From Elioraea sp. (GTDB taxonomy: Bacteria; Pseudomonadota; Alphaproteobacteria; Acetobacterales; Acetobacteraceae): DNA of 64,000 nt. The DNA lies in the NCBI RefSeq assembly GCF_022842375.1, contig NZ_JALHPR010000008.1:62001-126000 (forward strand), in the 5' to 3' direction. The notes under the pieces were generated by a model. That model had not been told where the DNA came from. It searched no databases and was given only the letters and a program-made list of their open reading frames with translations. Below are positions 10,037 through 31,257 of the stretch, in pieces. A program made the position numbers and the translations under genes. Position 1 is the first letter of the stretch; each line of letters begins with the position of its first letter.

Positions 10037-11251
10037 TCAACGCGTGCGTTGCGCCCCCGGGTGGGCGACGGCCTGCACCTGCAGGCTCCTGTCGAACTCG
10101 CGTGTGAAGTGCTCCGCAACCTCCGCGCTCCCGTCGGCGAAGCGGCCGATCGAGAACCTGTCGAGCGGCGTGCGGCTGCTCCCCTCAAGGACGAGATCGG
10201 CCAGCACGTCGCCAACGCCTGGGGCGAGCTGGAAGCCGTGGCCACAGAAGCCGAAGGCGTGCACAAGGCGCGGTGTCGTCCCGCTTGGCCCGATCACGGG
10301 CAGCATGTCGGGCAGGTATCCCTCGATGCCCGACCATACGCGCAGCAGTGTCGCACCCTCCAGCGCCGGCACCGCGCGCAGCAGGTGGCCCATCGCGTTG
10401 ACGATCTTGCGCGCGTCCACGGGTGCGCGGTTGGCGACGGGATCGGAGGGGCTGCGCGGATAGCCGGCGACGACGACATGGCCCTGCCGCACCTGGCGGA
10501 AGATCACCGTGCCGTCGACCGCCTGGACGGAGGGACGGATGAAGTACGGCACCGCATCGGTGACGAATTGCGGTGGCCCGGCGGGCACGATCGGGGCACC
10601 CTCACCGAACCAGCCCGCCACCTCAGGTGCCCAGGCGCCGGCGGCGTTGATGAGCGTGTCGGCCTCGATCGTCAGCCCGCCGGCGGCGTCGATGCGGAAC
10701 ACCGCACCTGTCCGCGCCGCGCCGTGCACGGCAGTGTCCTCGTGGATCAGCGCGCCGTGCGCGCGCGCGGCCCGCGCGACGGCGGGTGTCACGAGGCGAG
10801 GATTCGCGATCGCATCGCGCGGCGACCACGAAGCCATGGAGAAACCGTTGAGCCAGGGCCAGCGTTGCGCAAGCGCGCGGGCGTCGAGCAGCTCCGTCGC
10901 AAGCCCTGCTTCGCTTGCCTGCCGCGCCGCGGTCTCGACCTTCGCGATCTCCCTCGCATCATCGCGCGCTGCGTAGAGATGGCCGGTGGCATCGAACTCG
11001 CAGCCCTCGCCGATGAGATCGGGGAGCCGTTCCCACAGGGAGGCTGCACGGAGCGAGAGTGGTAGCTGCCCGGGGTGGCGCCCCTGGATGCGCAGATTGC
11101 CGTAGTTCACCCCGCTTGCCTGGGCGCCGACCTTGCCCTTCTCGATCACGCAGACGCAATGACCCGGGTCGCGGCGCCGGAGCATCAGCGCCGTCCAGCA
11201 GCCCATGAGCCCGCCGCCGACGATCGCGGTGTTGACGCGCAGCACCGTCAT
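10037..11251 (-). CDS. FAD-dependent oxidoreductase, DAO/HcnC-like (opine/amino-acid oxidase beta type)
   Basis: VNTAIVGGGLMGCWTALMLRRRDPGHCVCVIEKGKVGAQASGVNYGNLRIQGRHPGQLPLS...GIEGYLPDMLPVIGPSGTTPRLVHAFGFCGHGFQLAPGVGDVLADLV. Confidence 0.88.
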   Translation of the reverse strand: MTVLRVNTAIVGGGLMGCWTALMLRRRDPGHCVCVIEKGKVGAQASGVNYGNLRIQGRHPGQLPLSLRAASLWERLPDLIGEGCEFDATGHLYAARDDAREIAKVETAARQASEAGLATELLDARALAQRWPWLNGFSMASWSPRDAIANPRLVTPAVARAARAHGALIHEDTAVHGAARTGAVFRIDAAGGLTIEADTLINAAGAWAPEVAGWFGEGAPIVPAGPPQFVTDAVPYFIRPSVQAVDGTVIFRQVRQGHVVVAGYPRSPSDPVANRAPVDARKIVNAMGHLLRAVPALEGATLLRVWSGIEGYLPDMLPVIGPSGTTPRLVHAFGFCGHGFQLAPGVGDVLADLVLEGSSRTPLDRFSIGRFADGSAEVAEHFTREFDRSLQVQAVAHPGAQRTR

Positions 11252-12627
11252 GGCGTGTCCTCATCGACGAGCGTGGCATCGAGCGGGATTGGCTTGACCG
11301 GCGCCTGGCTGCGGTGGCGACCCATGGTCGCCACCGGCGCGGCGAGCGCATGGGCCATGAGCTCGGCAGTCGCGAGGCCGCAGAAGCGTGCCTGGCACCG
11401 CCCCATGCCGCAGCGGGTCAGCGCCTTGGCGCGGTTGACCTCGCGCGGGCCGAGTGGCGCAGCAACGGCCGCCCGCACCACACCGACCGTCACGTTCTCG
11501 CACCGGCAGAGCACGGTGTCGTCGCGGGCATCCGCGAGCCAGTGCGCCGGCCATGCGAACGCGCGCGACAGCGCACGCTGGAATGCGCGCAGCCGTGCGA
11601 GGCGTGCGCGAAGCATCGCGACCTCGGTAGCGGGAACGGCCACGCCGCGGTCAGCCAGGATGGCGTAGGCAGCAAGCCTGCCGCTGATCGCAGCAGCCGC
11701 GGCCCCGCCGATCGTGCAGCCATCACCCGCCGCATAGAGCCCTGGTGCCGCACGGCCATCGCCATCGACGATCGGCAGCCACTGGCGGAAATCCACGTCG
11801 AACGCCAGCGGCACGCCGGCGAGGTCAAGCAGCTGCGTCTCTGCGCGGAGCCCGAAGCCGAGTGCGACCGCATCGACGGCGAGGTCGTGCTCGGCGCCGC
11901 GGGAACAGCGAAACCGTACGCGCTCGGCGTAGTCCTGGCCCTCGATGCCGAGCGCGGTCACGCCATGGAAGATGGCCACGCCGCCGGCGCGCAGCCGCGC
12001 CATGTAGGAGAGGCCGCGTGCGAGAACGCGCGGTGCGGCCGCCGCGAGCGCCGGCGTTGCACGCAGCTTCTCCGGCAGGGCGGTGGTGTCGAGCACGGCC
12101 ACGACCGTGGCGCCCATCGCCTTGTACTGGAGCGCGGCGAGATAGAGCAGCGGCGAGGCACCGGCAAACACCACGCGCCTTCCGATCAGCGCGCCCTGGT
12201 CCTTCAGCAGGGTCTGCGCCCCGCCGAGCGAGAAGACGCCAGGCAGCGTCCACCCCGGAACGGGCAGGAGCCTGTCGGTCGCGCCCGTCGCGAGCAGCAG
12301 TGCACCATAGCGCAGGGGCCGGATGCGCCGATGCTCGATCACGAAGAGCTCGCCGCCCTGGAGGTTCCAGGCGAGGTGTCGTGGCCGGTGGTCGACCGAT
12401 GCGGCGATGGACGCGAACTCGGCATGCGCCTGCTCGTGCTCAGCCGCGGCCGCGCGACCGAGGATACGCGCGAGCGCTGGCTGGAGAGGCGCAGCCGGCT
12501 TGCGCCAGACCTGCCCTCCAGGCTGTTCCGCCTCGTCAACGATGATCGGGTGTTCCCCGGCCCTGGCGAGCACCACCGCCGCGGCCATCCCCGCCGGCCC
12601 GGCACCGACGATGACGGTGCTATGCAT
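11248..12627 (-). CDS. NAD/FAD-dependent oxidoreductase, HcnB/OoxA-like
   Basis: TVIVGAGPAGMAAAVVLARAGEHPIIVDEAEQPGGQVWRKP...LPVPGWTLPGVFSLGGAQTLLKDQG; C-terminal Cys motif CRCENVTVGVVRAAVAAPLGPREVNRAKALTRCGMGRCQARFCG (BFD-like). Confidence 0.9.
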   Translation of the reverse strand: MHSTVIVGAGPAGMAAAVVLARAGEHPIIVDEAEQPGGQVWRKPAAPLQPALARILGRAAAAEHEQAHAEFASIAASVDHRPRHLAWNLQGGELFVIEHRRIRPLRYGALLLATGATDRLLPVPGWTLPGVFSLGGAQTLLKDQGALIGRRVVFAGASPLLYLAALQYKAMGATVVAVLDTTALPEKLRATPALAAAAPRVLARGLSYMARLRAGGVAIFHGVTALGIEGQDYAERVRFRCSRGAEHDLAVDAVALGFGLRAETQLLDLAGVPLAFDVDFRQWLPIVDGDGRAAPGLYAAGDGCTIGGAAAAAISGRLAAYAILADRGVAVPATEVAMLRARLARLRAFQRALSRAFAWPAHWLADARDDTVLCRCENVTVGVVRAAVAAPLGPREVNRAKALTRCGMGRCQARFCGLATAELMAHALAAPVATMGRHRSQAPVKPIPLDATLVDEDTP

Positions 12628-12931
12628 CCGCGGGGCCTGCTGGCGGGCCCGTCAACACGGCCATGCCATCCACGACGCGGGTCGTGCAGGCGCGGATGCG
12701 ATGTCCGTCCGCCAGCCACACCCAGCAATCCTGGCAGGCACCCATCAGGCAGAACCCGGCGCGGGGCGCACCATCGACTTCGTGCGTGCGGAGCCGCGTC
12801 GTGTGTGCCAGCACGGCGACGAGTACGCTCTCTCCCGCGAAGGCCTGCACGACGTCGCCGTCAATCGTGATGGTGGCGCTGGCTGCGGTGCGATCAAGCA
12901 CCCTGACCAGCCGTGGCTTCGCCGGCATCAT
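12620..12931 (-). CDS. (2Fe-2S)-binding protein, HcnA-like small subunit
   Basis: 103 aa; ITIDGDVVQAFAGESVLVAVLAHTTRLRTHEVDGAPRAGFCLMGACQDCWVWLADGHRIRACTTRVVDGM; overlaps the next gene. Confidence 0.88.
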   Translation of the reverse strand: MMPAKPRLVRVLDRTAASATITIDGDVVQAFAGESVLVAVLAHTTRLRTHEVDGAPRAGFCLMGACQDCWVWLADGHRIRACTTRVVDGMAVLTGPPAGPADA

Positions 12932-14016
12932 CGCGCCTGCAGCCTGGCGCGGAGTGCGGCCATCTCGACATGGACGGCTTCGAGGTCCCCGAGCGCGAAG
13001 CCGGCCGCGAGCGTCGGGCTCAACGCCAGCAAGCGGTCATGCAGCACGCCGGTATAGGTGGCCTTGCCATCGGCCGACACGAGGAGGCCGTTGCGCTGCT
13101 CGAAGGACTGGTTCCACGCAACGGCTTCGTCCTGCGAAAGGCCGGGCGGGAGATCGAGCGAGAGCGCACCTTCGGCCCAGCGGACGGGATAGCCGCCCGG
13201 AAGCCCGAGCGCACCCGGCGCGTGGGCGGCGAGCGTCGTGCCCGGTGTCGCCATTGCCACGAGCAGCGGTACGGAGGCTGAGCCGGACACCTCGAGGGCC
13301 GGCTCCGGCGTCAGCCGCAGGGCGGCGAAGCGGATGTGGACATCGTCGATCTCGGCGTCGTCGATCCAGACGCGCGGCGTGGGCATGCCAGCGCGCTCGC
13401 CCATGTTCCGCCGCCACGCACCGATCGTCTGGTAGTGCGCCAGAACCTTTACCCGCCGGATGCCGCCGGGCCCGAGGGCGCCGGCGAAGCACGACGACAG
13501 GATGCCGACATTGCCGACGCCACAGGCCACGGGCAGGCCGAGGCAGGCGAGCATCGTGTTGACCACATCGGGGAAACAGCAATTCACCAGCACCGCACCT
13601 GGTGTGGCCTGACGCATCGCCCCGCCGACGCGGGCAGAGAGCAACGCCTGGAACACAGCCGTCGCGCTGAGCCCGCCCTCCGCGACGAGCCTGCTCCAGG
13701 CATCGTCGCTGCGGGCGATGACGGAGGCGGTCTGCACCGAGGCCGCCTGCACCACCACATCGGGCCGGATGGATGCGAGCATGGGCGCGATGGACCCGAC
13801 CGAGGAGAGATCGACCATGGCGGCGCTGGTCTCGACGCCTGTGCCGAAGGTGGCTGCGCGCGCGTTGCAGGCCGTGGTGAGCCACGCGAGCCGATCGCCG
13901 TTGCGGCCGGCGATGACGAGCCGCACCGGATGCTGCGCGCCGGCGGCGATGTCGCATGCGATGCGGGCGGCGAAGGCGCCGGTGCCGACGATGAGGATGG
14001 TGCCGCGCGCGGTCAT
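12928..14016 (-). CDS. saccharopine-dehydrogenase-like NAD(P)-binding protein
   Basis: MTARGTILIVGTGAFAARIACDIAAGAQHPVRLVIAGRNGDRLAWL...DVVVQAASVQTASV; ATGA overlap with the IclR gene stop. Confidence 0.65.
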   Translation of the reverse strand: MTARGTILIVGTGAFAARIACDIAAGAQHPVRLVIAGRNGDRLAWLTTACNARAATFGTGVETSAAMVDLSSVGSIAPMLASIRPDVVVQAASVQTASVIARSDDAWSRLVAEGGLSATAVFQALLSARVGGAMRQATPGAVLVNCCFPDVVNTMLACLGLPVACGVGNVGILSSCFAGALGPGGIRRVKVLAHYQTIGAWRRNMGERAGMPTPRVWIDDAEIDDVHIRFAALRLTPEPALEVSGSASVPLLVAMATPGTTLAAHAPGALGLPGGYPVRWAEGALSLDLPPGLSQDEAVAWNQSFEQRNGLLVSADGKATYTGVLHDRLLALSPTLAAGFALGDLEAVHVEMAALRARLQAR

Positions 14017-17325: not shown

Positions 17326-18009
17326 TCAGTCAGCCAGCTCCGTCTTGATCGCATTCTCGAGCGCTGCCGGCGTTCGGATCATCATCGCGCTGCGGGTGCG
17401 CGTCACCACGCCGCGGCGGAGCAGGCGCCCGATCTCGCGCGAGACGGCTTCGCGTCGCGCGCCGATGCGCGACGCCAGGACGTGCTGAACCGGGGGTGGC
17501 GAGATGCTGCGGCTGCCATCCGAGGCCGGCGGCCCTGCGGCGCGAAGCAGCTCCGCATAGAGGCGGTGGCGGATGTCCAGGCTCGTCAGCTCGAGCATCC
17601 TGGTGTTGGCTTCTCGGATCCGCGCGGTCAGCACCTGCATCATCCGCCGCGACAAGGCGGGCGTTCCCGAGATGATGTCCATGAAGCTCGGCCCTGGAAG
17701 GCGGCAGATCTGGCTGCGATGCAGCGCTGTCACGCTCGCTGAACGCGGCGCGCCATCGATGGCGGCCATATCGCCGAAGAAGCCGCCCGCGGTCACGTCG
17801 TCAAGGATCAGCTCCCGTCCGCCCGGCGTCCGCACGGCGATCCGCACGCTTCCCGAGAGGACGAAAAACACGTCGTCCGACATGTCGTCGAAATCGAGGA
17901 TCAGGCGTCCTGCCTCAGCCCACAGCCAGAGCGCGCGAGCTTCGTACCCTCGCAGGAGCTCGGAAGGCAGGTTGTGGAATAAGGGGATGGTGGAAAGCTT
18001 GCCACTCAT
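17326..18009 (-). CDS. Crp/Fnr family transcriptional regulator
   Basis: cNMP fold with FGDMAAIDGAPRSASVTAL phosphate-binding-cassette-like segment; HTH HVLASRIGARREAVSREIGRLLRRGVVTR; start MSGKL at 18009. Confidence 0.9.
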   Translation of the reverse strand: MSGKLSTIPLFHNLPSELLRGYEARALWLWAEAGRLILDFDDMSDDVFFVLSGSVRIAVRTPGGRELILDDVTAGGFFGDMAAIDGAPRSASVTALHRSQICRLPGPSFMDIISGTPALSRRMMQVLTARIREANTRMLELTSLDIRHRLYAELLRAAGPPASDGSRSISPPPVQHVLASRIGARREAVSREIGRLLRRGVVTRTRSAMMIRTPAALENAIKTELAD

Positions 18010-18212
18010 GCGTTCTCTCCGCAGCACGGCACCTTGGACAGGAGGTCACGCCAGGCCTTCGCTGACGCGGGCCGCTCAGGGGCCGTCCTGATCGGCTGCT
18101 GCCACGTCAACGGGGGGTCGCGCCGCGCGCGGCCTCTTCCATGCACCCCGGCGCGATCTGCGGCATCAGCGTCTCCTGCAACACGTCGCCATGCGGGCGT
18201 GACCGCCTGTCA

Positions 18213-18230
18213 ATGTGCTATTTCGCACAT
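18213..18230. promoter_or_regulatory. CRP-like palindrome ATGTGC-TATTTC-GCACAT
   Basis: Perfect 6-bp arms, 6-bp spacer, matching the TGTGN-N6-NCACA layout, in the intergenic region between the Crp/Fnr gene and the binding-protein array. Confidence 0.65.
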
Positions 18231-18394
18231 CACGGCCGCCGTCGCGACGGCAGGCTGTGGGTCTGGCATCCGTCCTCCCGCCGATAGGGCCAACCTCCAT
18301 GCAGGCTTGCTTCCCGGGTCGCGCTTGCATCTCAGCCCCGGATGCCCGGCACGGCCGGGATGTGCGCGCGAGGGACAGGCAGCAGGGCGGTCTG

Positions 18395-19360
18395 GTGCGC
18401 CGCCGGGTGGTACTGTCGGGCGCTTTCTCATTAGCGGCCGCGGATCGCGTGCGTGCACAGGGTCGTGTCCATCGCCTTTGCGTGCTGGCACCGGGGCGCT
18501 TCTCGATCGATGGCGTGCGGCGCTGGACGCTGCCCGAGCTTGCCCGGCTCGGCTTCATCGAGGGGCGGAACCTCGAGGTCCTTCTCCGCAGCACGGATGG
18601 CGATGCAGCGCCGCTGAGCAAGCTTGCCGCGGAGCTTGCCGCCGCGCGCTGCGATGCGGCGATCGCGGTGGCCAACCCGGTCGCGCACCTGCTGCGCGCG
18701 GCCGACCCGCGGCTGCGTGTGGTGATGGGGTTTGCCGGCAACGACCCGGTCGCCGATGGGTTGGCCGAGAGCCTCGCGCGGCCCGGCGGCATGGTCACGG
18801 GCATCGTCATGCTGGGCGAGGAGCTTGATGCGAAACGCCTGGAGTTCGCCCGCGACCTCGACCCTGCCGGCGGGCCGATCGGCTTTCTTGCTGGCGCGAC
18901 GCTGACGCCCGATCGGGTGGCCCGGATCCACGCGGAGGCTGCCGCAAACGGCATTGGCCTCGTGCTGGTCCGCGCCGGCGAGCCCGCGAGCTATCCCGCT
19001 GCCCTTGGCGCCTTGCGGGCGGCAGGCGTGCGCGTCATCGTCGTCGGCTCCTTCCCCGGCTTTGCCGGCAATGCCGGCCTACTTGCAGCCCAGGCGGCGG
19101 AGCACGGCCTGCCGCTGCTCTGCGATTGGCGGCACATGGCGGAAGCGGGCTGCGTAGTCAGCTATGGCGCGAGCAACGCCGAACTCCGCCGGCGCAACGC
19201 TGTGCAGGTGGCGCGCGTCCTCCGCGGCGAGCCTCCCGGCACCATCCCGATGGAGCGGCCGGAGCGTTTCGAGTTCATCCTCAACCTGCGTGCGGCGCGT
19301 GCCCTCGGCCTCGCGGTGCCAAATGCCATCCTGGCCAGGGCCGATGAGGTGATCGAATGA
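18395..19360 (+). CDS. ABC_sub_bind (PF04392/TrpX-like) periplasmic binding protein, array copy 1
   Basis: GTG 18395: VRRRVVLSGAFSLAAADRVRAQGRVHRLCVLAPG...LPELARLGFIEGRNLEV...SLARPGGMVTGIVMLGEELDAKRLEFARDL...LNLRAARALGLAVPNAILARADEVIE. Confidence 0.85.
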   Translation: MRRRVVLSGAFSLAAADRVRAQGRVHRLCVLAPGRFSIDGVRRWTLPELARLGFIEGRNLEVLLRSTDGDAAPLSKLAAELAAARCDAAIAVANPVAHLLRAADPRLRVVMGFAGNDPVADGLAESLARPGGMVTGIVMLGEELDAKRLEFARDLDPAGGPIGFLAGATLTPDRVARIHAEAAANGIGLVLVRAGEPASYPAALGALRAAGVRVIVVGSFPGFAGNAGLLAAQAAEHGLPLLCDWRHMAEAGCVVSYGASNAELRRRNAVQVARVLRGEPPGTIPMERPERFEFILNLRAARALGLAVPNAILARADEVIE

Positions 19361-19370
19361 CGGTGATCGC

Positions 19371-19674
19371 ATGATCGCACGCCGGTCGCTGCGGCCGCTC
19401 GCGGCGCTGCCGATCGCGGGCAGGGTGCGTGCGCAGGCGCCGTCCGGGCGGAAGCGCCGCATCGGGGTGATCGTCTGGAGCGCCGAGGGTGACCCGGACG
19501 CGCTGCGCCGTGCCGCCGCGCTGCGCGAGGGGCCTGCGTGGCGAGAGCCCGGGCGAACTGCCGGTACAACTGCCGACGCGGTTCGAGTTCTTCATCAACC
19601 GCCCCTCCGCCCGTGCGCTCGGGCGGGAGTTCCCGCCGATGCTGCTCGCCCGGGCCGACGAGGTGCTCGAATGA
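19371..19674 (+). pseudogene. ABC_sub_bind protein remnant (internal deletion plus frameshift), array copy psi
   Basis: N-terminus [37 protein letters not shown] in one frame, then C-terminal [40 protein letters not shown] in another; about two thirds of the gene missing. Confidence 0.85.
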
Positions 19675-19684
19675 TGGTGATGAC

Positions 19685-20641
19685 ATGATCGGCCGCCGCG
19701 GCGTTCTCGCCCTGCCGTTGCTCGCGGCTCCGGCGCTGGCGCAGGGTCAGGTGCGGATCGGCTGGGTCTCGGTCTTTCCCCTGCGCCAGGTCTCGGCCTA
19801 TCTCGATGCATTCCGCGAGGGCCTGGCTGCGCTCGGCTATGTCGAAGGGCGAAATCTCGTTCTCGATGCGGTCTCGGCCGAGGGCGACGCCTCCCGCCTG
19901 CCCGAGGTGCTGGACAGCCTGCTGCGTCGGCGGCCGGCGGTGATCGTCGCCCAAGGAGCGGCAATCTTCGCCGCCGAACGCGTCCGGACCGTGCCGGTGG
20001 TGTTCGGGTTCAGCGGCGATCCGGTGCTCGCCGGGCTCACCGACAGTCTTGCGCGGCCGAGCCGCAACCTCACGGGCATGACTTTCATGGCGGTGGACCT
20101 GAACGAGAAGCGGCTCGACCTGTTGCGCGAGCTGCTGCCCGCCTCGCGCCGGGTCGTGTTGACCGGCGACCCTGTGCATCCCGGCGCGGAGCTTGAGGTC
20201 GCAGCGTCCCGCGCCATGGCGGAGCGGCTTGGGATAGCCGCGCGGTGGGTGCCAACGGCGAGCCGCGCAATGGTGCGCGAGCTGCTCGCCGAACTGGAGA
20301 TCAACCCGCCCGACGCGCTCGTAGTGCTGCCGGACAGCGTGATGCTGCAAAGCCGCAGCGATGTGGCCGCGTTCGGGGTCGCACGTCGCACGCCCACCAT
20401 GTCAGGCTGGCGGATCTTCGCCGAGAGTGGCGGGCTGGTGAGCTATGGGCCGCATCTCGAGACGAGTTTTCAGCGCCTTGCTCACTATGCGGTACGCCTG
20501 CTGGCGGGCGCTCGCCCAGCCGAGCTCCCGGTGGAGCGGCCGACGCGTTTCGAACTCGTGCTGAACCGCCGGACGGCCGAGGCTATCCGGCTGGACCTGC
20601 CGTTGGCGCTGCTCGCCCGGGCGGACGAGGTGCTCGAATGA
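19685..20641 (+). CDS. ABC_sub_bind periplasmic binding protein, array copy 2
   Basis: MIGRRGVLALPLLAAPALAQGQVRIGWVSVFPLRQVSAYLDAFREGLAALGYVEGRNLVLDAVSAEG...[10 protein letters not shown]. Confidence 0.9.
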   Translation: MIGRRGVLALPLLAAPALAQGQVRIGWVSVFPLRQVSAYLDAFREGLAALGYVEGRNLVLDAVSAEGDASRLPEVLDSLLRRRPAVIVAQGAAIFAAERVRTVPVVFGFSGDPVLAGLTDSLARPSRNLTGMTFMAVDLNEKRLDLLRELLPASRRVVLTGDPVHPGAELEVAASRAMAERLGIAARWVPTASRAMVRELLAELEINPPDALVVLPDSVMLQSRSDVAAFGVARRTPTMSGWRIFAESGGLVSYGPHLETSFQRLAHYAVRLLAGARPAELPVERPTRFELVLNRRTAEAIRLDLPLALLARADEVLE

Positions 20642-21612
20642 TCACTCGCCGTGCCCTGCTGCTGTTCGCCCTTGCCCCCACCGTCGCCCGTTCCCAGCCG
20701 CGACGGCTGCCGGTGGTTGCTTTCGTCGGCTTCGCCTCCGCTGAGGGCGACAGGCTGACCGTCGAATCCTTTCGCGACGGCATGCGTGCGCAGGGCGAGA
20801 TCGAGGGACAGACGTGGCGTTTCGTGCATCGCCATGCCGGCGGTGATGCGGCGCGCGGGGCCGCCATCATCCGCGACCTCGCGGCCCTGCCGGTGGACGT
20901 GTTCGTCGTACCTGGCCCCGCTGCCGCCCGCGCGGTGCGGCGCGCGACGACGATTCCGCTTGTCGCTGTTGGCCTGCCGCCCGTCGTAAGCGACCCGGAG
21001 TTGTTCGCGTCCCTCTCCCACCCCGGCGGCTCCGTGACGGGGTTTGCGAGTTTCGGCGAGGAGATGTCGGCCAAGCGTATCGAATTGCTGCGCGAGGCGA
21101 TCCCGGGCCTCGCCGTGATCGGCGTGATGCACAACGCAAGCGACCCGACATTCGACGCCTGGGGAAGGCTCACCGAGGCGTCGGCGACCGCGCAGGGGCT
21201 GCGCGCGCTCCGCGTGCCGATCGCCGCGCGCGACCCGGTTTTACTTGCAGAGCGGATGCGCGGCCTCCGTGCGGCCGGTGGCACCGCGCTCGTGGTCGTG
21301 CGCGACTTCCTGACGAGCTCGCTGATTGCCGAGATCGTCGCCGCGGCGGAAGCGGAGGGCATCGCGGTGATCGGCGACCAGGCCCGCTTTGCCGAGGCCG
21401 GTGCCCTGCTCAGCTTCGGCGCCAGCCTGCCCGACCTGTTCCGCCGTGCTGCCCTCTACGTCACGCGCATCCTGCATGGCGAAAAGCCGGGGAACCTGCC
21501 AGTGCAGCTGCCGACCAAGGTCGAGTTCGTCGTGAACCTCCGCTCGGCAAGCGCGCTTGGCATCGCCGTTCCCCGTGCCATCCTCGCGCGCGCCGACGAG
21601 GTGATCGAATGA
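20638..21612 (+). CDS. ABC_sub_bind periplasmic binding protein, array copy 3
   Basis: MITRRALLLFALAPTVARSQPRRLPVVAFVGFASAEGDRLTVESFRDGMRAQGEIEGQTW...ILARADEVIE; ATGA overlap with copy 2. Confidence 0.9.
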   Translation: MITRRALLLFALAPTVARSQPRRLPVVAFVGFASAEGDRLTVESFRDGMRAQGEIEGQTWRFVHRHAGGDAARGAAIIRDLAALPVDVFVVPGPAAARAVRRATTIPLVAVGLPPVVSDPELFASLSHPGGSVTGFASFGEEMSAKRIELLREAIPGLAVIGVMHNASDPTFDAWGRLTEASATAQGLRALRVPIAARDPVLLAERMRGLRAAGGTALVVVRDFLTSSLIAEIVAAAEAEGIAVIGDQARFAEAGALLSFGASLPDLFRRAALYVTRILHGEKPGNLPVQLPTKVEFVVNLRSASALGIAVPRAILARADEVIE

Positions 21613-21622
21613 GGCCAGCCCC

Positions 21623-22573
21623 GTGATCGCGCGCCGCTCCGTCCTGGCCCTTCCGGCGCTGGCATACGCGCCCGCCGCCGCAGCGGCACCGCGCCGCCTC
21701 GGTGCGCTGCTGTTGACTGGCCGGGCGGACGTGCTGCTGCGCACCCACCTGCTGCCGGAGCTCGCGCGGCGGGGCTGGCGGGAGGGGGCAAACCTGACGC
21801 TCGATGCCCACGTCGCCGCTGCGCCCGACCAGCCTCGCGCCGCGGCGGCTCTGGTGGCGACCGCACCCGACATCATCGTCGCCGTAGGCGCGCCCGCCGT
21901 TCGCGCGGCACGGGCGGCGACCGACGCGATTCCGATCGTGATGCACGGCGCCGATGCCCGCCTGCTCGCCGGCACCTCCATGGCGCGGCCAGGCGGCAAC
22001 GCCACGGGCGTCGTGGCCAACACGCCGGAGGCGGAAGGCAAGCGGCTCGAGATGGTGGCCGAGCTCACCCCGCCCGGCACCCCCGTCGCGGCGCTGTTCC
22101 ACAGCGGCACCGACCAGCTGTCGCCACGCCTTGCCGCGATGGAGGCCGCCGCTCGGCAGGCGGGCCGTGCTTTCGTCGCGCAGCAGTGGGAAGGGACGGA
22201 GGGCGCTGCACCTGCCCTCGCCTCGCTTGCCGCGCAGGGTGTCCGCGGCGTGGCCCTCGGCGGCACACCGGAATCGCTCCGCGATGCGCGCCGGATCGCT
22301 GCCGCTGCACGGGCGATGCGGCTCGCCACGATCGGCCAATGGCGAAGCATGGTCGACGAAGGCTGCACCGCGAGCCATGGCCCGGACTTCCACGCGCTCT
22401 ATGCCCGCGTGGCGCATTTCGTGGCACTGATCCTCCGTGGCACGCAGCCGGGCGAACTGCCTATCGAGGCACCGATGCGGGTCGAGACGGTGATCGATCT
22501 CCGCGCCGCCGCCGCCCTCGGCCTCGCCGTTCCCGTTGCCCTCCTCGCCCGCGCCGACGAGGTGATCGAATGA
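21623..22573 (+). CDS. ABC_sub_bind periplasmic binding protein, array copy 4
   Basis: GTG start 21623: MIARRSVLALPALAYAPAAAAAPRRLGALLLTGRADVLLRTHLLPELARRGWREGANLTL...[10 protein letters not shown]. Confidence 0.88.
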   Translation: MIARRSVLALPALAYAPAAAAAPRRLGALLLTGRADVLLRTHLLPELARRGWREGANLTLDAHVAAAPDQPRAAAALVATAPDIIVAVGAPAVRAARAATDAIPIVMHGADARLLAGTSMARPGGNATGVVANTPEAEGKRLEMVAELTPPGTPVAALFHSGTDQLSPRLAAMEAAARQAGRAFVAQQWEGTEGAAPALASLAAQGVRGVALGGTPESLRDARRIAAAARAMRLATIGQWRSMVDEGCTASHGPDFHALYARVAHFVALILRGTQPGELPIEAPMRVETVIDLRAAAALGLAVPVALLARADEVIE

Positions 22574-22614
22574 GGCCCATCCCCCCACCGCGCGGCCATG
22601 GCAGGAGCGTACCA

Positions 22615-23655
22615 ATGTCCGACCGGCCCATCGAGGGGGGCATCGTGGCCGATGATGCCGCGGAAGCGCCCGGGACGCAGCGCAGCTTGGGACGGCGCGC
22701 CGTCGTCGCGGCCACGCTCGCCTCGCCGCTGGTGTGCCGCGTCGCGCTGGCACAGCCAGGACGGCCGCTGAGGATCGGGTATATCGTCAACGGACCGGAA
22801 CGGACGATCTTCGAGGAGAAGTTCGAGCTCGGCATGAAGGAAAACGGCTACGTGGTCGGCCGCAACCTCATGATCGACTATCGCCACCAGCTCCGCCCCG
22901 ACCATGACCTGTCCGACGTGATGCGCGGCCTCGTTGCCGCGCGGGTGGACGCGATCGTCGCCTCCACGCGCGGCGGCGTTCTCGCCGCGAAGGCGGCGAC
23001 GACGACTATCCCGATCGTATTCGGTGCGACGCGCGATGCCATCCAGGACGGGCTGGTGCAGAGCCTGGCGCGGCCTGAGGCGAACGTCACCGGGCAGTCC
23101 TTCCACGCGGGCGAGCTTTCAGCCAAGCGCGTGCAGCTCATGCGCGACGCGTTCCCGCACGAGCAGAAATTCGGTGCCATCTTCAACATCTACTACCCAT
23201 CGCAGATCCAGATCGACGAGGCGTCGCGCGCCCAGGCGCAGCTCGGCATCGATCTCGTCTTCCGGGGCATCGCCGTTCCCGAGGGGCTGGACGAGGCGTT
23301 CGGCGCGCTCAGGCGCGAGGGCGTTGCCGCGCTGTTCGTCGTGTCCGATGTCTCGACCATCTCGAACCGCCTCACGCTCGGCGAGGTCGCGATCCGGCAC
23401 CGCATGCCGCTGATGCTGTCGAACCGCCGCTACCTTACCGGTGGCGGGCTCATGAGCTACGGGCCCGACATCAGCGACGGGTTCCGCCGCGCGGCACGGC
23501 AGGTGGTGCGGGCAGCGACGGGAACGCCGATCAGCCACATCCCCGTCGAGAACCCGACGCATTTCGAGCTCGTGATCGACCTCCGTGCGGCCAGGGCGCT
23601 CGGCGTCGAGATCGATCGGTCCGTTCTCGACCGTGCCGACGAGGTGATCGAATGA
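22615..23655 (+). CDS. ABC_sub_bind periplasmic binding protein, array copy 5
   Basis: MSDRPIEGG...LGRRAVVAATLASPLVCRVALAQPGRPLRIGYIVNGPERTIFEEKFELGMKENGYVVGRNLMIDYRHQ...VLDRADEVIE; alternative ATG 22570. Confidence 0.88.
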   Translation: MSDRPIEGGIVADDAAEAPGTQRSLGRRAVVAATLASPLVCRVALAQPGRPLRIGYIVNGPERTIFEEKFELGMKENGYVVGRNLMIDYRHQLRPDHDLSDVMRGLVAARVDAIVASTRGGVLAAKAATTTIPIVFGATRDAIQDGLVQSLARPEANVTGQSFHAGELSAKRVQLMRDAFPHEQKFGAIFNIYYPSQIQIDEASRAQAQLGIDLVFRGIAVPEGLDEAFGALRREGVAALFVVSDVSTISNRLTLGEVAIRHRMPLMLSNRRYLTGGGLMSYGPDISDGFRRAARQVVRAATGTPISHIPVENPTHFELVIDLRAARALGVEIDRSVLDRADEVIE

Positions 23656-24626
23656 TCCCGCGCCGCACGATGCTCGGCGGCAGCCTCACCGCCACCGCAC
23701 TCACGCGACCTGCCCACGCCCGGCCCGTTCCCTTGCGAATCGGGTGGCTGACGATGCAGCGGCCCGCGTCGCTCGCACCCTTCATCCCGGCGCTGCGCGC
23801 GGGGCTTGCCGAGCGGAACCTGGTCGAGGGGCGCGACCTCATCCTTGATTTTCGCTTCGGCAACGATGATCGGGCGCGCGTGCCGGCATTGCTTGATGAG
23901 CTGATGCGCGTTCCGGTGCGGCTCCTGCTCGTGCAGGGTGCTGCGGCGGCACCTGTGATCCGCGCGCGGCCGCCCGTACCGGTGGTGTTCGTGATGAGCA
24001 GCGATCCGGTCGCGGCCGGTCTGGCGGACAGTCTCTCCCGTCCGCCGGCTGGCGTCACCGGCATCACTTTCCTGTCCGCTGCGCTGAACGGCAAGCGTGT
24101 CGAGCTGCTGCACGAGCTGCGTCCTGGCCTCCAGCGTCTCGCCGTGCTCAGCAACCCTGGCCATCCCGGCGAAGCGCTGGAGCGTGCCGAGGCGGAGGCG
24201 GCGGCGCGCCGGCATGGCATGGCGGCACGTTTCCATCACGTACAGAATGAGGCAGAGCTCGATGCTGCCTTCGCGGTCATGGCCGCCGACGATGCCGAGG
24301 GGATGGTGGTGTTCGCTGATGGGTTCGCGCTGCAGAACCGCACGGCAATCGCTGCCTTCGCGACGGCGCGGCGCATCCCGCTGATCTCCGGCTGGCGTGC
24401 CTTCGCCGAGGCGGGCGCGCTCGTCAGCTATGGCCCACGGCTCGAGGACGCCTACCGGCGCCTTGCCCATTTCGTCGCCCGCATCCTGCGCGGTGCGCGG
24501 CCGGAGGATATGCCGATCGAGCAGCCGCGCGTGTTCGAGCTCGTGGTGAACCAGCGGAGCGCCGAGGTCATCGGGATCGAAATTTCGACAGCCCTGCTCG
24601 CCCGCGCAGACCTGGTGCTGGAATGA
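23652..24626 (+). CDS. ABC_sub_bind periplasmic binding protein, array copy 6
   Basis: MIPRRTMLGGSLTATALTRPAHARPVPLRIGWLTMQRPASLAPFIPALRAGLAERNLVEGRDLILDFRFGNDD...LLARADLVLE; ATGA overlap. Confidence 0.9.
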   Translation: MIPRRTMLGGSLTATALTRPAHARPVPLRIGWLTMQRPASLAPFIPALRAGLAERNLVEGRDLILDFRFGNDDRARVPALLDELMRVPVRLLLVQGAAAAPVIRARPPVPVVFVMSSDPVAAGLADSLSRPPAGVTGITFLSAALNGKRVELLHELRPGLQRLAVLSNPGHPGEALERAEAEAAARRHGMAARFHHVQNEAELDAAFAVMAADDAEGMVVFADGFALQNRTAIAAFATARRIPLISGWRAFAEAGALVSYGPRLEDAYRRLAHFVARILRGARPEDMPIEQPRVFELVVNQRSAEVIGIEISTALLARADLVLE

Positions 24627-25585
24627 CACCGCGGCGCACCGCCCTCGCGCTGCCGCTGGCGTGGCTTGCGCGACCGGCCCGCGCACAGTTGCGGCGGCCG
24701 CCGCGGGTGGGGTACCTCCACTCCGTCAGCATCGGTCCTGCCAACAATGCGACGCGGCTGATCGTCGGCGCGCTCAAGGCGCGCGGCCTCGTCGAGGGAC
24801 AGACGATCTTCCTGCGCGCCGGACGAGGCGAACCCGCAATCCTCGCGCGCGTGCTCGATGAACTCGTGGCGATCGATCCCGATGTGCTCGTCGCCGTCGG
24901 CGCGCCAGCCGTGCTTGCCGCGGCACAGCACGTGCGTCGCCTGCCTGTGGTCGGCGTCGACCTCGAGACGGATCCTGTCGCGGCCGGGCTGGCCACCTCC
25001 GTTGCGAGGCCAGGCGGGCACGTCACGGGGCTGTTTCTCGATCAGCCCTCGATGGCAGCGAAGTGGCTCGACCTGCTGCTCGAACTCGCGCCCACCGTAC
25101 GGCACGTGGTGTTCATCTGGGACGCGATGACGGGGCCGCACCAGCTGCACGCCGCGACCGCGCAGGCCATGCGGCGGCGTCTGACGAGCGACGTCGTGAA
25201 CCCTTTCGACCCAGATGCCCTGCCGTCGGCACTTGCGACCCGCACGCCGGGCACCACGGGTGTTGTGATGCTGACGGCGCCCGGCATCACCGAGCACCTG
25301 CCGCGCATCGGCGTATCCCTCCGCGCCGCGCGGGTTCCGGGCGTGACCTTCCTTCCCAATTTCGTGGGCCATGGCTTCGCGATGGGCTACGGCATCGACC
25401 AGGCGCACTACTATGCCCGCGCCGCGGCGATCGTCGACCGCATCCTCGATGGCGATGACCCGGGCGCCATTCCGATCGAGCGGCCGACGCGCTTCCGCTT
25501 CGCCATCGACGTCCGCATCACCGATGCGCTCGGCCTCGTCGTCCCCAACACGCTTCTCGCGCAGGCCGACGAGGTGCTGGAGTGA
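24623..25585 (+). CDS. ABC_sub_bind periplasmic binding protein, array copy 7
   Basis: MTPRRTALALPLAWLARPARAQLRRPPRVGYLHSVSIGPANNATRLIVGALKARGLVEGQTIFLRAGRGE...LLAQADEVLE; ATGA overlap. Confidence 0.9.
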   Translation: MTPRRTALALPLAWLARPARAQLRRPPRVGYLHSVSIGPANNATRLIVGALKARGLVEGQTIFLRAGRGEPAILARVLDELVAIDPDVLVAVGAPAVLAAAQHVRRLPVVGVDLETDPVAAGLATSVARPGGHVTGLFLDQPSMAAKWLDLLLELAPTVRHVVFIWDAMTGPHQLHAATAQAMRRRLTSDVVNPFDPDALPSALATRTPGTTGVVMLTAPGITEHLPRIGVSLRAARVPGVTFLPNFVGHGFAMGYGIDQAHYYARAAAIVDRILDGDDPGAIPIERPTRFRFAIDVRITDALGLVVPNTLLAQADEVLE

Positions 25586-27522
25586 GCGGCCCGACGCTTT
25601 CGCTCGCGCAACGGCTGACGCTGGCCTTCCTCGGCCTTGTGGCTGCCGTGCTGCTCGTCAACGGCAGCATCTCGATGTGGTTTGCCTACCGCGAGGCCAC
25701 CGAGGCTGCGGTGCGCGTCGAGCAGGAGAAGGCCGATGCGGCGGCCGAACGCGTCGCGCAGTTCATCGCCGAGCTCGAACAGCAGATCGGCTGGACCACG
25801 CGGGCCGACTGGGCGCGCGTGCCGATGGAACAGCGGCGCTACGACTTCATCCGCCTGCTGCGCCAGGCACCGGCGATCACAGAACTGCTCTTCGTCGACG
25901 GCGGCGGGCATGAGCGGCTGCGCCTCTCCCGCCTCGAACCCGATGTGCTCGACAGCGGCACCGACCTCTCAGCCGATCCACGGTTTCGGGGTGCCCGCGA
26001 GAACCGCGTCTGGTACGGGCCGGTGACGTTCCGGCGCGGCTCCGAACCCTACATGCCCGTCGCGATGGCACATGCCGGGCGCAACCCGGGTGTCACGATC
26101 GCCGATGTGAACCTCAAGCTGATCTGGGAGGTGATCACCGCGATCCGCGTTGGCGGCACGGGCTATGCCTTCGTCACCGATGCCGCAGGCCGCCTCGTCG
26201 CCCACCCCGACATGAGCCTCGTGCTGCGCGAGACGGACCTCTCGCGCCTGCCGCAGGTGGCGAGTGCCATCACAGGCGCGGGCGAGCGCGTGCGCACGGC
26301 ACGGGGCCTTAACGGGCGCTCGGTGCTTTCGGCGCATGCCACGATCCCGCGCCTTGGGTGGCTCGTGTTCGTCGAACAGCCGACGGTGGAGGCGCTGGCG
26401 CCCGTCTATGCGGCGGCCTACCAGACATTGGCGTTGCTCTCCCTCGGCGTCGTGCTCGCACTCGGCGCGGGCGTGTTCCTCGCACGCCGCCTCACCGGCC
26501 CGATCCGGGCGTTGCAGGCGGGGGCCGAGCGGGTCGGCCAGGGCGACCTCACGCAGCGCATCGATGTCGGTGCAGCCGATGAGATCGGCACGCTCGCGCT
26601 GCGGTTCAACGAGATGGCGGCTCGCATCCAGGAGGCGCAGGAGACGCTCGAGGCCAAGGTCGAGGACCGCACGCGTGAGCTCGCGCAATCGCTCGACGAG
26701 CTTCGTGCGGCACAGGATCGGCTGGTGCAGACCGAGAAGCTTGCCTCTCTGGGGCAGCTGACCGCGGGCATCGCGCACGAGATCAAGAACCCGCTGAACT
26801 TCGTCAACAACTTCGCCGACCTGTCGCGCGAGCTGATCGAGGAACTAAGCTCGACGATGGAAAAAGCTGGACCGGCGCTCGACCCTGCGCTGCGGGCAGA
26901 CGTGGAGGAGGTGTGCGGTACGCTGCGCAACAACCTCGACAAGATCACCACGCATGGCAAGCGTGCCGACAGCATCGTGCGCAACATGCTCGCCCACTCC
27001 CGGGAGGGAAAGAGCGAGCGCCGCAGCGTCGAGCTCAACGCGCTGGTCGAAGAGGCGTTGAATCTGGCCTGGCATGGAACCCGGGCCGAGCGGCCAGGCT
27101 TCAACATCACACTCGAGAAGCGTCTCGACGCGGGCCTTGGGCAGGTGCAGATCTTTCCGCAGGAACTCACCCGCGTCCTGCTCAACCTGTTCGGCAACGC
27201 CTTCTACGCCGTTCAGAACAAGGAAGGGGTGGGTTTTCAGCCACACCTGCTCGTCACGACAGAGCAACGGTCCGGTAGCGTGGTGGTGCGGGTCCGAGAC
27301 AATGGCACCGGCATTCCGGAGCCGGTGCGCACCCGCATCTTCGAGCCGTTCTTCACGACCAAGCCGCCCGGCCAGGGGACTGGGCTCGGACTCTCGCTTT
27401 CGCACGATATCGTGGTGCGCCAACATGGTGGCGAGCTCGCTGTGGCGACCGAACCCGGCGCCTGGACCGAGTTCACCATCACGCTGCCCCGCGGCCCGGT
27501 GCTTGAGGGGAGAGCGGCATGA
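25582..27522 (+). CDS. sensor histidine kinase with Cache-like extracytoplasmic sensor, HAMP, HisKA and HATPase
   Basis: N-terminal TM, SADPRFRGARENRVWYGPVTFRRGSEPYMPVAMAHAGRNPGVTIADVNLKLIWEVITAIRVGGTGYAFVTDAAGRLVAHPD (Cache-like); RRLTGPIRALQAGAERVGQGDLTQRI (HAMP); LGQLTAGIAHEIKNPLNFVNNFADLS (H box); GTGLGLSLSHDIVVRQHGGEL. Confidence 0.93.
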   Translation: MSGPTLSLAQRLTLAFLGLVAAVLLVNGSISMWFAYREATEAAVRVEQEKADAAAERVAQFIAELEQQIGWTTRADWARVPMEQRRYDFIRLLRQAPAITELLFVDGGGHERLRLSRLEPDVLDSGTDLSADPRFRGARENRVWYGPVTFRRGSEPYMPVAMAHAGRNPGVTIADVNLKLIWEVITAIRVGGTGYAFVTDAAGRLVAHPDMSLVLRETDLSRLPQVASAITGAGERVRTARGLNGRSVLSAHATIPRLGWLVFVEQPTVEALAPVYAAAYQTLALLSLGVVLALGAGVFLARRLTGPIRALQAGAERVGQGDLTQRIDVGAADEIGTLALRFNEMAARIQEAQETLEAKVEDRTRELAQSLDELRAAQDRLVQTEKLASLGQLTAGIAHEIKNPLNFVNNFADLSRELIEELSSTMEKAGPALDPALRADVEEVCGTLRNNLDKITTHGKRADSIVRNMLAHSREGKSERRSVELNALVEEALNLAWHGTRAERPGFNITLEKRLDAGLGQVQIFPQELTRVLLNLFGNAFYAVQNKEGVGFQPHLLVTTEQRSGSVVVRVRDNGTGIPEPVRTRIFEPFFTTKPPGQGTGLGLSLSHDIVVRQHGGELAVATEPGAWTEFTITLPRGPVLEGRAA

Positions 27523-27917
27523 GCGTCCTGGTACTCGTCGTGGACGACGAACCGGACATCGCCGATCTGTTCCGGCAGCAGTTCCGCCACGATCTGCGGC
27601 AGGCCCGCTTCGCGCTGGGCTTCGCCACGTCAGGACCGCAGGCACTCGGGCTCATTGCAGCGGCCCAGGGGCGCGACATCATCCTCCTGCTCTCCGACAT
27701 CAACATGCCTGGAATGAGCGGGTTCGACCTGCTTGCCCGCGCCCGCGCGCTGCGTCCTGACCTGCCTATCATCATGATCACCGCCTATGATGATGCCGCA
27801 ACACGTTCACGCGCCGTTGCCGAAGGGGCCGAGGGGCTCGTCGCCAAGCCGATCGATTTCACGCTGCTGCGCATTGAAATCGAGCGCCGCCTCGCAGTAC
27901 GGGAAGCCCGGCGATGA
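27519..27917 (+). CDS. stand-alone response regulator receiver
   Basis: 132 aa, [14 protein letters not shown]...[17 protein letters not shown]...MITAYDD...[10 protein letters not shown]; no output domain. Confidence 0.93.
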
Positions 27918-29155
27918 GTCTCATTCTAGTGGTCGATGACGAGCCGGATCTCGAGGTCCTGATCCTGCAGAAGTTCCGCCGCGAGGCCCGTGAGGGACGA
28001 TTCGCCTTCCACTTTGCGCGTGATGGCGTCGAGGCGCTGGAGCGGTTGGCCGCAGCGCCCGAGACAGCGCTTCTGCTTGCCGACATCAACATGCCGCGGA
28101 TGGATGGCCTCACGCTGCTTGCGCGTCTGCAGGAAAGGCCGGACCCGCCGGCCACCGTCATCGTCTCGGCCTACGGCGACATGGCGAACATCCGCACCGC
28201 GATGAACCGAGGGGCCTTCGACTTCCTCACCAAGCCGATCGACTTCGCCGATCTCGATGCGACCATGGCCAAGACGCTGCGCCATGTCGGCGAGCGGCGC
28301 GCGGCGGAGGCGCGGCGGCTGGCGGCGGAACGCGCGCATGCAGCGCTTGCGCGCTACTTTTCGCCCAACCTCGCCCGGCAACTGGCCGATGCGGCGCGCG
28401 CGCTGGATCTCGGCGGCCAGCGGCGGGACGTCAGCGCGCTGTTCACCGATATCACCGGCTTTACGGCTTTGGTCGAGAGCCTTGATGCAGCCGCACTTGC
28501 GGCGATGCTGAACGCCTATCTCACAGGCATGACCGACATCGCCTTCGCCCATGGCGGAACCGTGGCGAAGGTCATGGGCGACGGCATGCTGCTGCTGTTC
28601 GGCGCGCCGGATGACCAGCCCGACCACGCAGCGCGCGCCGTGGCCTGCGCACTTGCGCTTGATGTCTTTGCCGAATCATTCCGCGGCGGCCACTCCGCAA
28701 AGGGGCTCGCGCTCGGCGCCACGCGCATCGGCGTCCACAGCGGCCCGGCCCTGGTCGGGGATTTCGGTGGCGGCAGGCATTTCGATTACACGGCGTATGG
28801 AGAGACGATCAACCTCGCCTCGCGGCTCGAAACCGTGAACAAGGCACTTGGCACAAGGCTGCTCGTCTCGGCGTCGACAGTGCAGCGGATCGGCGGCTTC
28901 CAGGGGCGCCCGGTTGGCGATCTGCTGCTGCGCGGGGTCGGCCAGCCGCTCACTGCCTTCGAGCCGCTGACGCATGACCGTGTGCGCACCGCCGCGATCT
29001 GTGCCTACCAGGAGATCTTCGCCCGGCTCGACGGCGCCGATGCTGGCGTGGGGGTAGCGATGGCGCGGCTTGCAGCGGCGGGCGACCCGCTTGCCGCTTT
29101 TCATGCACAGCGGCTCGCGGCCGGTGCCGCGGGCCGGCTGATCGATCTTCGATGA
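27914..29155 (+). CDS. response regulator with class III adenylate/guanylate cyclase domain (REC-CYCc)
   Basis: [13 protein letters not shown]...[16 protein letters not shown]...[28 protein letters not shown]...[19 protein letters not shown]...[38 protein letters not shown]. Confidence 0.94.
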
Positions 29156-31257
29156 CGCGCGCGACTGAGGCAGGTGCCGGGCTCCATGCCGGCATCCTCG
29201 CCGCGACGCAGTCTCTGACGCATGGCATGATCGCCTTCGCCGCCCTTGGCACGGCCGGCGTCGCCTTCGGCATGGCGGCGGCGCTTGCAGCCTCGGCGCT
29301 GGCGGGCCTCTCCATTGCGCTTCTCGGCTCAAGCCGCCCGTTGATGGGGAATACCTCGGCGGCCACGGCGCTGATCGCCGGAGGGCTGCTCGCCGCCCTG
29401 GAGCCGTCCAGTTTCGGCCATGCCATCGCGATGGCCATGCTCCTTGCTGGTGCTGCCGGGCTGCTGATGCTGGCCGCGAACCGCCTCGCCGGCGTCGCCG
29501 CGCTGGTGCCGACACCTGTCGCGCAGGGGCTCGGCAATGCGATCGCGCTCCTGGTCATGATCGCCCAGGCGCCGATCCTGCTGGGCGCCGCGCCGGGTGA
29601 GGCTGCGCCCTGGGCTGCGCCGGTGCCTGGCGCCATGGCAGTGGCCGCCCTCGCCCTGCTGCTGATGCTGCGCCCGCTGCCTGGCCTGCCGGCACCGCTC
29701 GTTGCCCTGGCGGTGGCGAGTGGGCTGCATCATGTGCTTTCCGATGCCGGGATCGCAACGGGGCCGGTCGTCGGCATCGCGCCGACGGTGCACACCTTCG
29801 TTGCCGGGATCGCTGCTGCCACTGCCGGACGGCCGCACGCGCTTCACATCGCGCGGGTGCTGCCAGCCGCGCTGTCGCTTGCGCTGCTGGCGACCATCGA
29901 GACGATGGCCGCTGCCGCCGCCCTGCGCGAGGCGTCCGGCAGGCGCGGCGACCATCACAGCGACCTGCGTGGCGCAGCGCTCGGCATGCTCAGTAGTGCG
30001 GTGGCCGGCGGCATGCCAACCGTCGGATTGATGGTCCCGAGCATGGCCTGTTGGCGTGCCGGTGGCCGCGGCCGCGCAGCGCAGCTCTGGCGACTGCCGG
30101 TCCCACTTGCCGTGCTTCTGGCGGGAGGCGCGCTGGTAGCGATGCTGCCTTTTGCTGCGCTGTCCGGCGTTCTCTGCGGTGCGGTGCTGCGGCTCATCAA
30201 GGTCCCGCCTTCGCCGCTGTCGCGCGCCCCGGGGCGCGCGCGGCGCGCAGGCGATGCGCTCGTCGTGCTGTCGGTGATGGCAACGGCGCTTGCCTTTGGC
30301 CTCGTCGCAGCAGTGGGGGCCGGGATGCTGCTCGCCATGGTAATCTTCACTGCCTCCATGGCGGCCTCGCCTGTACGCCGCGTCTCGCGCAACCCTGTCG
30401 GGCGATCACGCATCCGGCGCCCAGCCGGACAGGAGCGTGCGCTCCGCGATGCCGGCGAGGCAATCGCGTTGATCGCGTTGGAGGGTGCGATCTTCTTCGG
30501 TAGCGCCGAGCACGCGCTGCAGCGGGCGGAGGCTGAGCGTTCGGCGGGCGCAGCTCTGCTGATCCTCGACCTCACGCGCGTCACACGCCTGGATCTCTCC
30601 GGTGGGCGGCGGCTGATCGAGATCTGCCGCGTCATGCCGGGCCGGGTTCTGCTGGCGCCGCTGCATCCATGCAGCCGCGTGGCCATGGAACTGGAGGCGC
30701 TCGGCCTGCTCGCGAGGCTGCCTCCAGCTGCCGTCTTCGCCGACCTGCCTGCCGCGGTTGAGGCCGCGGAAGCCATCGTCCTGTCAGCGATCGAGCCCGA
30801 CGAACGGGCCTGGCCTGCAACACCGCGCGCGGCGCTAGAGGCCCTCGGCGTGCCCTCCTCTGAGGTGGGGCCGCTGCTTGCACTCTGCACCGAACAGCAT
30901 TTCGCCGCGGGTGCGCCGATCCTTCGCCGTGACGAACTGGCGGATGCTGCCTATCTGCTGCTTTCCGGGGAGGTGCTGATCAGTCTGCCGTCGATCGGGG
31001 CACGGCCGGCAACGCGTCTCGCGGTGCTGGTGCCTGGCGTGCTGTTCGGCGAGTCCGCTCTCCTCGGGCAGATGCGGCGCAGCGCCGACGCCACCGCCCG
31101 GTCCGCTGTGCGGTGTCTGCGCCTGGATGCTGTCGCCGTCGACCGGCTGCGCAGCGAGGCACCGCAGGTGGCATGGCACCTGATGACGACCGTGGCGCGG
31201 CAACTCGGGGTTCAGGTCCGGGCCGCGAATGCCACGATTGACCGGCTCGAGGAATGA
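29152..31257 (+). CDS. SulP-family transporter with C-terminal STAS and cyclic-nucleotide-binding domains
   Basis: SulP-like polytopic N-terminus; STAS-like [19 protein letters not shown]...[23 protein letters not shown]; cNMP domain [49 protein letters not shown]. Confidence 0.87.

Follow-up and report, generated by a model that had tools for sequence, protein, structure and literature searches.

What does a series of binding protein genes do when it has no transporter of its own and runs directly into the genes of a signalling pathway? This question is raised by a locus at positions 17326 to 31257 of a 64,000-nucleotide stretch of the genome of Elioraea sp. (contig NZ_JALHPR010000008.1, positions 62,001 to 126,000), referred to here as the window. 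The preliminary description of this DNA listed seven intact genes and one broken gene for binding proteins (BPs) of family PF04392, together with genes for a histidine kinase (HK), a lone receiver (REC), a receiver joined to a class III nucleotide cyclase (REC-CYC), a SulP-STAS-cNMP transporter, and a divergent Crp/Fnr-type regulator. Open reading frame coordinates and Pfam matches agree with this gene set. The same set occurs in related genera, which suggests a module that conveys several chemical signals from outside by way of one internal messenger. Its composition is conserved, its catalytic and binding motifs are intact, and an operator-like site is conserved beside the regulator gene. 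On balance, we lean slightly towards a multi-input signalling operon in which orphan BPs are co-receptors for one HK that controls a phospho-regulated adenylate cyclase, with cyclic AMP (cAMP) acting on the Crp-type regulator and, in some lineages, on SulP.

Organization of the locus

The genes on the forward strand are in the order BP1, broken BP, BP2 to BP7, HK, REC, REC-CYC, and SulP, with the Crp/Fnr gene divergent from them. Loci in other genomes are given numbers beginning with L and genomes numbers beginning with G.

17326..18009, reverse strand: dedicated Crp/Fnr-type regulator, cNMP_binding and HTH_Crp_2; ATG start at 18009, alternative GTG at 18027; cassette FGDMAAIDGAPRSA
18213..18230, no strand: operator-like palindrome ATGTGCTATTTCGCACAT, between the Crp gene and BP1
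18395..19360, forward strand: BP1, PF04392; start uncertain; orthologues in L121, L151, L152, and L154 at 57-59%
19371..19674, forward strand: broken BP, with an internal deletion and a frameshift; its orthologue group has intact members in L151 and L121
19685..20641, forward strand: BP2, PF04392 by Pfam match
20638..21612, forward strand: BP3, PF04392; orthologues at 70-77% in L094 and L151-L154
21623..22573, forward strand: BP4, PF04392; orthologues at 76-77% in L093 and L094
22615..23655, forward strand: BP5, PF04392; orthologues at 78-80% in L094, L151, L152, and L153
23652..24626, forward strand: BP6, PF04392; orthologues at 69-78% in L093, L094, and L154
24623..25585, forward strand: BP7, PF04392; 4-nt overlap with the HK start; groups with BP3 of L093 and BP5 of L094
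25582..27522, forward strand: HK; transmembrane segment 12-30, periplasmic dCache_1, transmembrane segment 283-301, HAMP, HisKA (His399), HATPase_c
27519..27917, forward strand: lone REC, phospho-acceptor Asp60
27914..29155, forward strand: REC-CYC; Asp57; metal-binding Asp179/Asp223; Lys219/Thr293; Asn300/Arg304
29152..31257, forward strand: SulP-STAS-cNMP transporter, cassette at 632

In Pfam terms the regulator is PF00027 with PF13545, the cyclase protein REC with Guanylate_cyc, and the transporter Sulfate_transp with STAS and cNMP_binding. The 4-nt overlaps that had been claimed between genes are present at seven of the 11 junctions (BP2/BP3, BP5/BP6, BP6/BP7, BP7/HK, HK/REC, REC/REC-CYC, and REC-CYC/SulP), including all those among HK, REC, REC-CYC, and SulP, and the remaining four are gaps of about 8-42 nt. 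As had also been claimed, the gene calls place no ATP-binding cassette (ABC) permease or ATPase inside the operon. An internal terminator or promoter had been named as evidence against a single unit; the terminator scan gave 5 matches compared to 4.6 in shuffles and the promoter scan found no internal promoter, so that no break in the operon is indicated, both scans being weak in GC-rich DNA.

A widespread kinase-receiver-cyclase core

A scan of genome contigs for REC-CYC identified 80 loci, most of which have HK, REC, and REC-CYC in this same order. The trio is a widespread alphaproteobacterial cassette. Within the family of the window REC-CYC is sporadic, being present in 12 of 200 genomes and absent from two of the same genus.

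Phospho-acceptors and catalytic residues are kept in alignments of 91 REC-CYC, 78 REC, and 53 HK sequences. His399 is present in all 53 HKs, and D57 and K107 of the REC-CYC receiver are present in all 91 sequences. In the cyclase domain Asp179 and Asp223 are invariant, while Lys219 is found in 87 of the 91, Thr293 in 71, Asn300 in 89, and Arg304 in 90. Lys219 and Thr293 align with Pseudomonas aeruginosa CyaB, which points to ATP as the likely substrate.

The kinases of these loci are either membrane proteins with dCache or proteins that lack it, many of the latter being long; the one scanned with Pfam, from L130, is a soluble multi-GAF kinase. In the window the sensor is a periplasmic dCache_1 domain between the two transmembrane segments, scoring 60 bits against a cut-off of 45. 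In Dankookia rubra (L016:10679-12511) an additional HK gene with two receiver stretches comes straight after REC-CYC and a BP gene is on the opposite strand.

Co-conservation had been proposed as the main test of the module, and it is borne out: the composition recurs in related genera and the core is far more widespread. The Crp gene and BP array are together in the window and in L094 (G201), L121 (G395), L151 (G266), L152 (G427), L153 (G327), and L154 (G274), spanning four genera including that of the window, with SulP seen in two. The whole set through SulP is present in L094 and L121. L093 runs from the BPs through SulP, its contig ending on the Crp side; the contigs of L152 and L153 end before HK, and L154 and L123 are probably two parts of a single operon of G274. 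The searchable literature yielded no account of this gene set.

Binding protein genes and dCache kinases

A BP gene is within two genes of 31 of the 50 dCache-HK loci and of none of the 28 loci whose kinase lacks dCache (Fisher p 6e-9, without correction for kinship), and this is also the distribution of the arrangement that marks a substrate-binding protein (SBP)-dependent kinase, a BP gene adjacent to and conserved with the HK gene. L040, with a non-cache HK and BPs downstream, is outside this count, its upstream side ending at the contig end. In ten distinct loci a 4-nt overlap joins the BP and HK genes. The two features also change together within genera. In genus g16, dCache and BPs are both present in L103 and L104 and both missing from L101; in Methylobacterium they are both present in L002, L004, L006, L061, and L077 and both missing from L059. 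The REC-CYC tree requires at least 18 changes in BP linkage, 10 of them on well supported branches, and 8 in the dCache label. In the independent contrasts differing in cache, the BPs change in the same direction in 2-3 of 3 and in the opposite direction in none, a number of contrasts too small for a sign test to reach significance.

The array is where this genome keeps its PF04392 genes, as all seven matches in 4.82 Mb are inside it. In other genomes the module holds 2 of 2 (G006), 2 of 2 (G022), 4 of 5 (G001), and 3 of 4 (G005), and chance clustering of the BPs is rejected by these counts. Orthologues are 57-80% identical between genera and paralogues within one array 31-47%. In the BP tree the array splits into old orthologue groups common to several genera, with array neighbours not being sisters; recent tandem amplification is rejected, the nearest relatives of the members lying outside their own array. 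The members are old, distinct orthologue groups, as expected if each BP has its own ligand. Gene order in L151 matches that of the window for BP1, the group of the remnant, BP3, BP5, and BP7, the last by N-terminal likeness only. The BP N-termini are signal-peptide-like, beginning Arg-Arg, with no lipobox by eye.

Compared with the intact L151 orthologue, the broken BP is 66% identical in its N-terminal piece (from 19371) and 79% identical in its C-terminal piece, which extends to about 19674 and is in another frame; about 200 codons have been lost between the two. Truncated BPs recur, with one in the window, one in L121, and three in L154, thus arrays gain and lose members. The array with the three truncated members (L154:1342-9291) has decayed further than that of the window.

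The regulator and its palindrome

Seven loci show the regulator end of the array, and in each of them a Crp orthologue adjoins it. The protein has the cNMP phosphate-binding cassette and HTH_Crp domain of Crp/Fnr receptors. There is a single match to TGTGN8CACA in the 64 kb, at the Crp-BP1 site, and the palindrome ATGTGC-N6-GCACA between Crp and the array is at one place in the window genome; in G000 (the window genome), G274, and G395 it is found only at the module. All seven module intergenic regions contain an exact TGTG-N8-CACA, for which the chance is 0.001-0.0075 per region. For L121 the region is bounded by the array and the outermost divergent BP, and L150 was excluded because its palindrome is downstream of Crp and was picked after being seen. 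This putative operator points to local autoregulation. Crp had been raised as a possible cAMP output and, given the conserved operator-like site, is now the best supported candidate for one. A global Crp regulon was rejected, as the genome has the strict site at a single place; the search did not extend to weaker sites. In L150 (1-1870) a Crp orthologue (68%) is right after a class III cyclase, with no BPs, and the palindrome is 13 bp past the Crp stop codon.

The SulP transporter

The transporter matches PF00916 with 53.5 bits, while STAS scores 22.0 against a cut-off of 22.6 in the window and is above the cut-off in L125 and L130. Against NCBIfam it scores 57.7 bits for BicA and 55.8 for DauA, both far under the cut-offs, and the best structure is 5da0. 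Within its cNMP phosphate-binding cassette, G633, E634, R643, and A645 are invariant in 18 homologues. SulP is a lineage-specific part of the system, missing from most loci. SulP-cNMP proteins at about 40% identity adjoin cyclases in L126 and L130, and since genomes hold 1-4 recognised cyclases such adjacency is unlikely by chance.

In L126 (5928-10630) the SulP-cNMP gene is followed by a CHASE2-class III cyclase gene. In L130 (165-13991) it has the gene of a 1605-aa multi-GAF kinase on one side and REC/REC-CYC on the other; the opposite strand carries a Lactamase_B_2 (MBL-fold) gene, the product of which might be a cyclic-nucleotide phosphodiesterase. The L122 SulP, beside an AAA_16 protein with a cyclase-like N-terminus by eye, was not counted, as Pfam does not confirm the cyclase. 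Lys/Thr cyclases are often bicarbonate-stimulated; a bicarbonate link through the BicA-like match is left as speculation, SulP being far below the BicA cut-off.

A proposed mechanism and its alternatives

The linkage pattern is best explained by a chain from ligand to BP, dCache HK, REC-CYC, cAMP, and finally Crp or SulP. Secreted PF04392 BPs, having lost or never had an ABC transporter, would act as co-receptors, and each BP, once loaded with its ligand, would dock on the kinase's single periplasmic dCache domain. The kinase would phosphorylate the receiver of REC-CYC and so set cAMP synthesis, and the lone REC may compete for or drain phosphate. Binding of the one palindrome between Crp and the BP operon by the dedicated, cAMP-responsive Crp-type protein would feed back locally on expression of the array; cAMP would also act, in some lineages, on the SulP-family anion transporter through its C-terminal cNMP domain. 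Inputs would be exchangeable, with arrays turning over and the dCache HK elsewhere replaced by a kinase without dCache, the BPs then being absent. The preliminary reading of the locus as a single module stands as far as the co-conservation, the catalytic residues of the cyclase, receivers, and HK, and the retained cNMP cassettes of SulP and Crp carry it; we infer every protein-protein and ligand step, including the contact of BP with HK and the effects of cAMP. A stronger form, for which the case is close to even and falls a little short of it, is that of a combinatorial periplasmic receptor, in which one dCache kinase and an evolving set of at least seven orphan PF04392 BPs feed one cAMP signal, a one-site Crp, and a cNMP transporter. 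If this is true, PF04392 proteins of this group are sensory and do not serve transport.

Several observations weigh against the proposed signalling operon. No BP neighbours 19 of the 50 dCache loci, nearly all of them from Bradyrhizobium with a resistance-nodulation-division (RND) pump upstream, and the domain is equally conserved there, so its partner may be a ligand of its own or a BP encoded elsewhere. SBPs encoded beside kinases in P. aeruginosa failed to bind their sensor domains (PMC11113362). G266 (L151) has array, trio, and Crp with no SulP after REC-CYC, the SulP-cNMP genes of genus g16 and others are away from cyclases, and cAMP could act on unlinked effectors too. In Bradyrhizobium loci such as L010, L009, and L011, the dCache HK-REC-REC-CYC genes come immediately after an AcrB-type RND pump gene in place of BPs, which suggests that the cassette has a different input or output there.

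The BPs could instead be ordinary uptake proteins working with shared or unlinked ABC permeases, with dCache sensing something else and the circuit merely co-regulating scavenging. Their family is one of ABC binding proteins, with solved relatives 3lkv, 3lft, and 6hni, and a weak permease match in the window genome and the 19 dCache loci without an adjoining BP would fit. However, a query with the permease of the canonical PF04392 operon of G026 (L136), where permease and ATPase adjoin, finds close relatives in the positive controls G026, G027, and G016 and in none of six module genomes: there is none in G201, G395, G080, G006, or G022, and one weak 27% match in that of the window. The cognate permease and ATPase of a TrpXYZ-type ABC importer are missing from the operon. 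The absence of BPs beside any counted HK without dCache and the ten overlaps of BP with HK also argue against uptake, which we consider unlikely. Improbable, in our view, is that dCache binds a small ligand directly while the BPs sequester, buffer, or deliver it instead of docking. Such domains usually bind ligands directly, the best sequence matches among structures are of the PctA family, and this one is unusually conserved for a sensor, including in loci without a nearby BP. Yet the Asp of the amino-acid motif dCache_1AA (PMC10104139) aligns with Asp175, a position taken by Glu, Asn, or Ser in the relatives shown, and R-x-W-Y varies, so that no known ligand class is indicated. On the output side, SulP may be a passenger, the signal being read by Crp only or by unlinked cAMP receptors only. 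Its absence from most loci and from G266 favours this; the intact cassette, the 4-nt coupling to REC-CYC, and the separate SulP-cNMP/cyclase adjacencies in L126 and L130 do not, and we think it rather unlikely.

Relationship to known systems

In LuxP-LuxQ and ChvE-VirA, a binding protein encoded beside a membrane HK is thought to present its ligand to the sensor domain. The same is thought of BctC-BctE (PMC9602780). The BP genes of the module likewise adjoin a membrane HK. It differs from all three in having at least seven distinct BPs of one family per HK and no partner transporter, and in having a dCache sensor and, as its predicted first output, cAMP rather than a DNA-binding response regulator. 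On the proposed reading, the module would be a hitherto undescribed variant of SBP-dependent sensor kinases. Cyanobacterial CyaC joins a receiver and a class III cyclase in one protein, as does REC-CYC, the cyclase domain of which matches the solved adenylate cyclases 1wc0/1wc1 and CyaB 3r5g; unlike CyaC, the module has its HK and second receiver as separate proteins, a periplasmic sensor, and BP input. Its SulP shares the Sulfate_transp and STAS core of the SulP (SLC26) transporters BicA, DauA, and SLC26Dg and differs from them in its C-terminal cNMP domain with an intact cassette. The regulator has the cNMP domain, HTH_Crp_2, and TGTG-N8-CACA-type palindromic site of Crp/Fnr proteins, although unlike the global members it appears to be operon-local, with a single site. 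The BPs belong to the same family as those of TrpXYZ-type importers (61-84 bits to NF041285 TrpX, cut-off 390), which differ in having the permease and ATPase that this operon lacks.

Binding proteins are known to switch about ten sensor kinases, and what large, redundant sets of them do has been raised as an open question (PMC9602780). The module is a compact case, combining many BPs and a single kinase with a readable second messenger and a one-site reporter promoter, which would allow each BP to be tested singly for ligand and effect. If the proposed mechanism is true, it would connect extracellular binding proteins with cAMP in the Alphaproteobacteria and suggest that a SulP transporter is under cAMP control.

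Surrounding genes

The GC content of the locus resembles that of its flanks, and a horizontal island was rejected on composition. The downstream genes begin about 300 bp past SulP and are of other families, being a 2OG-Fe(II) oxygenase gene and then a separate ABC operon with SBP_bac_8. At positions 10037-14016 of the window, genes for a DAO oxidoreductase, a Pyr_redox_2/BFD protein, and a 2Fe-2S protein are in a row and resemble an amine or opine oxidase set.

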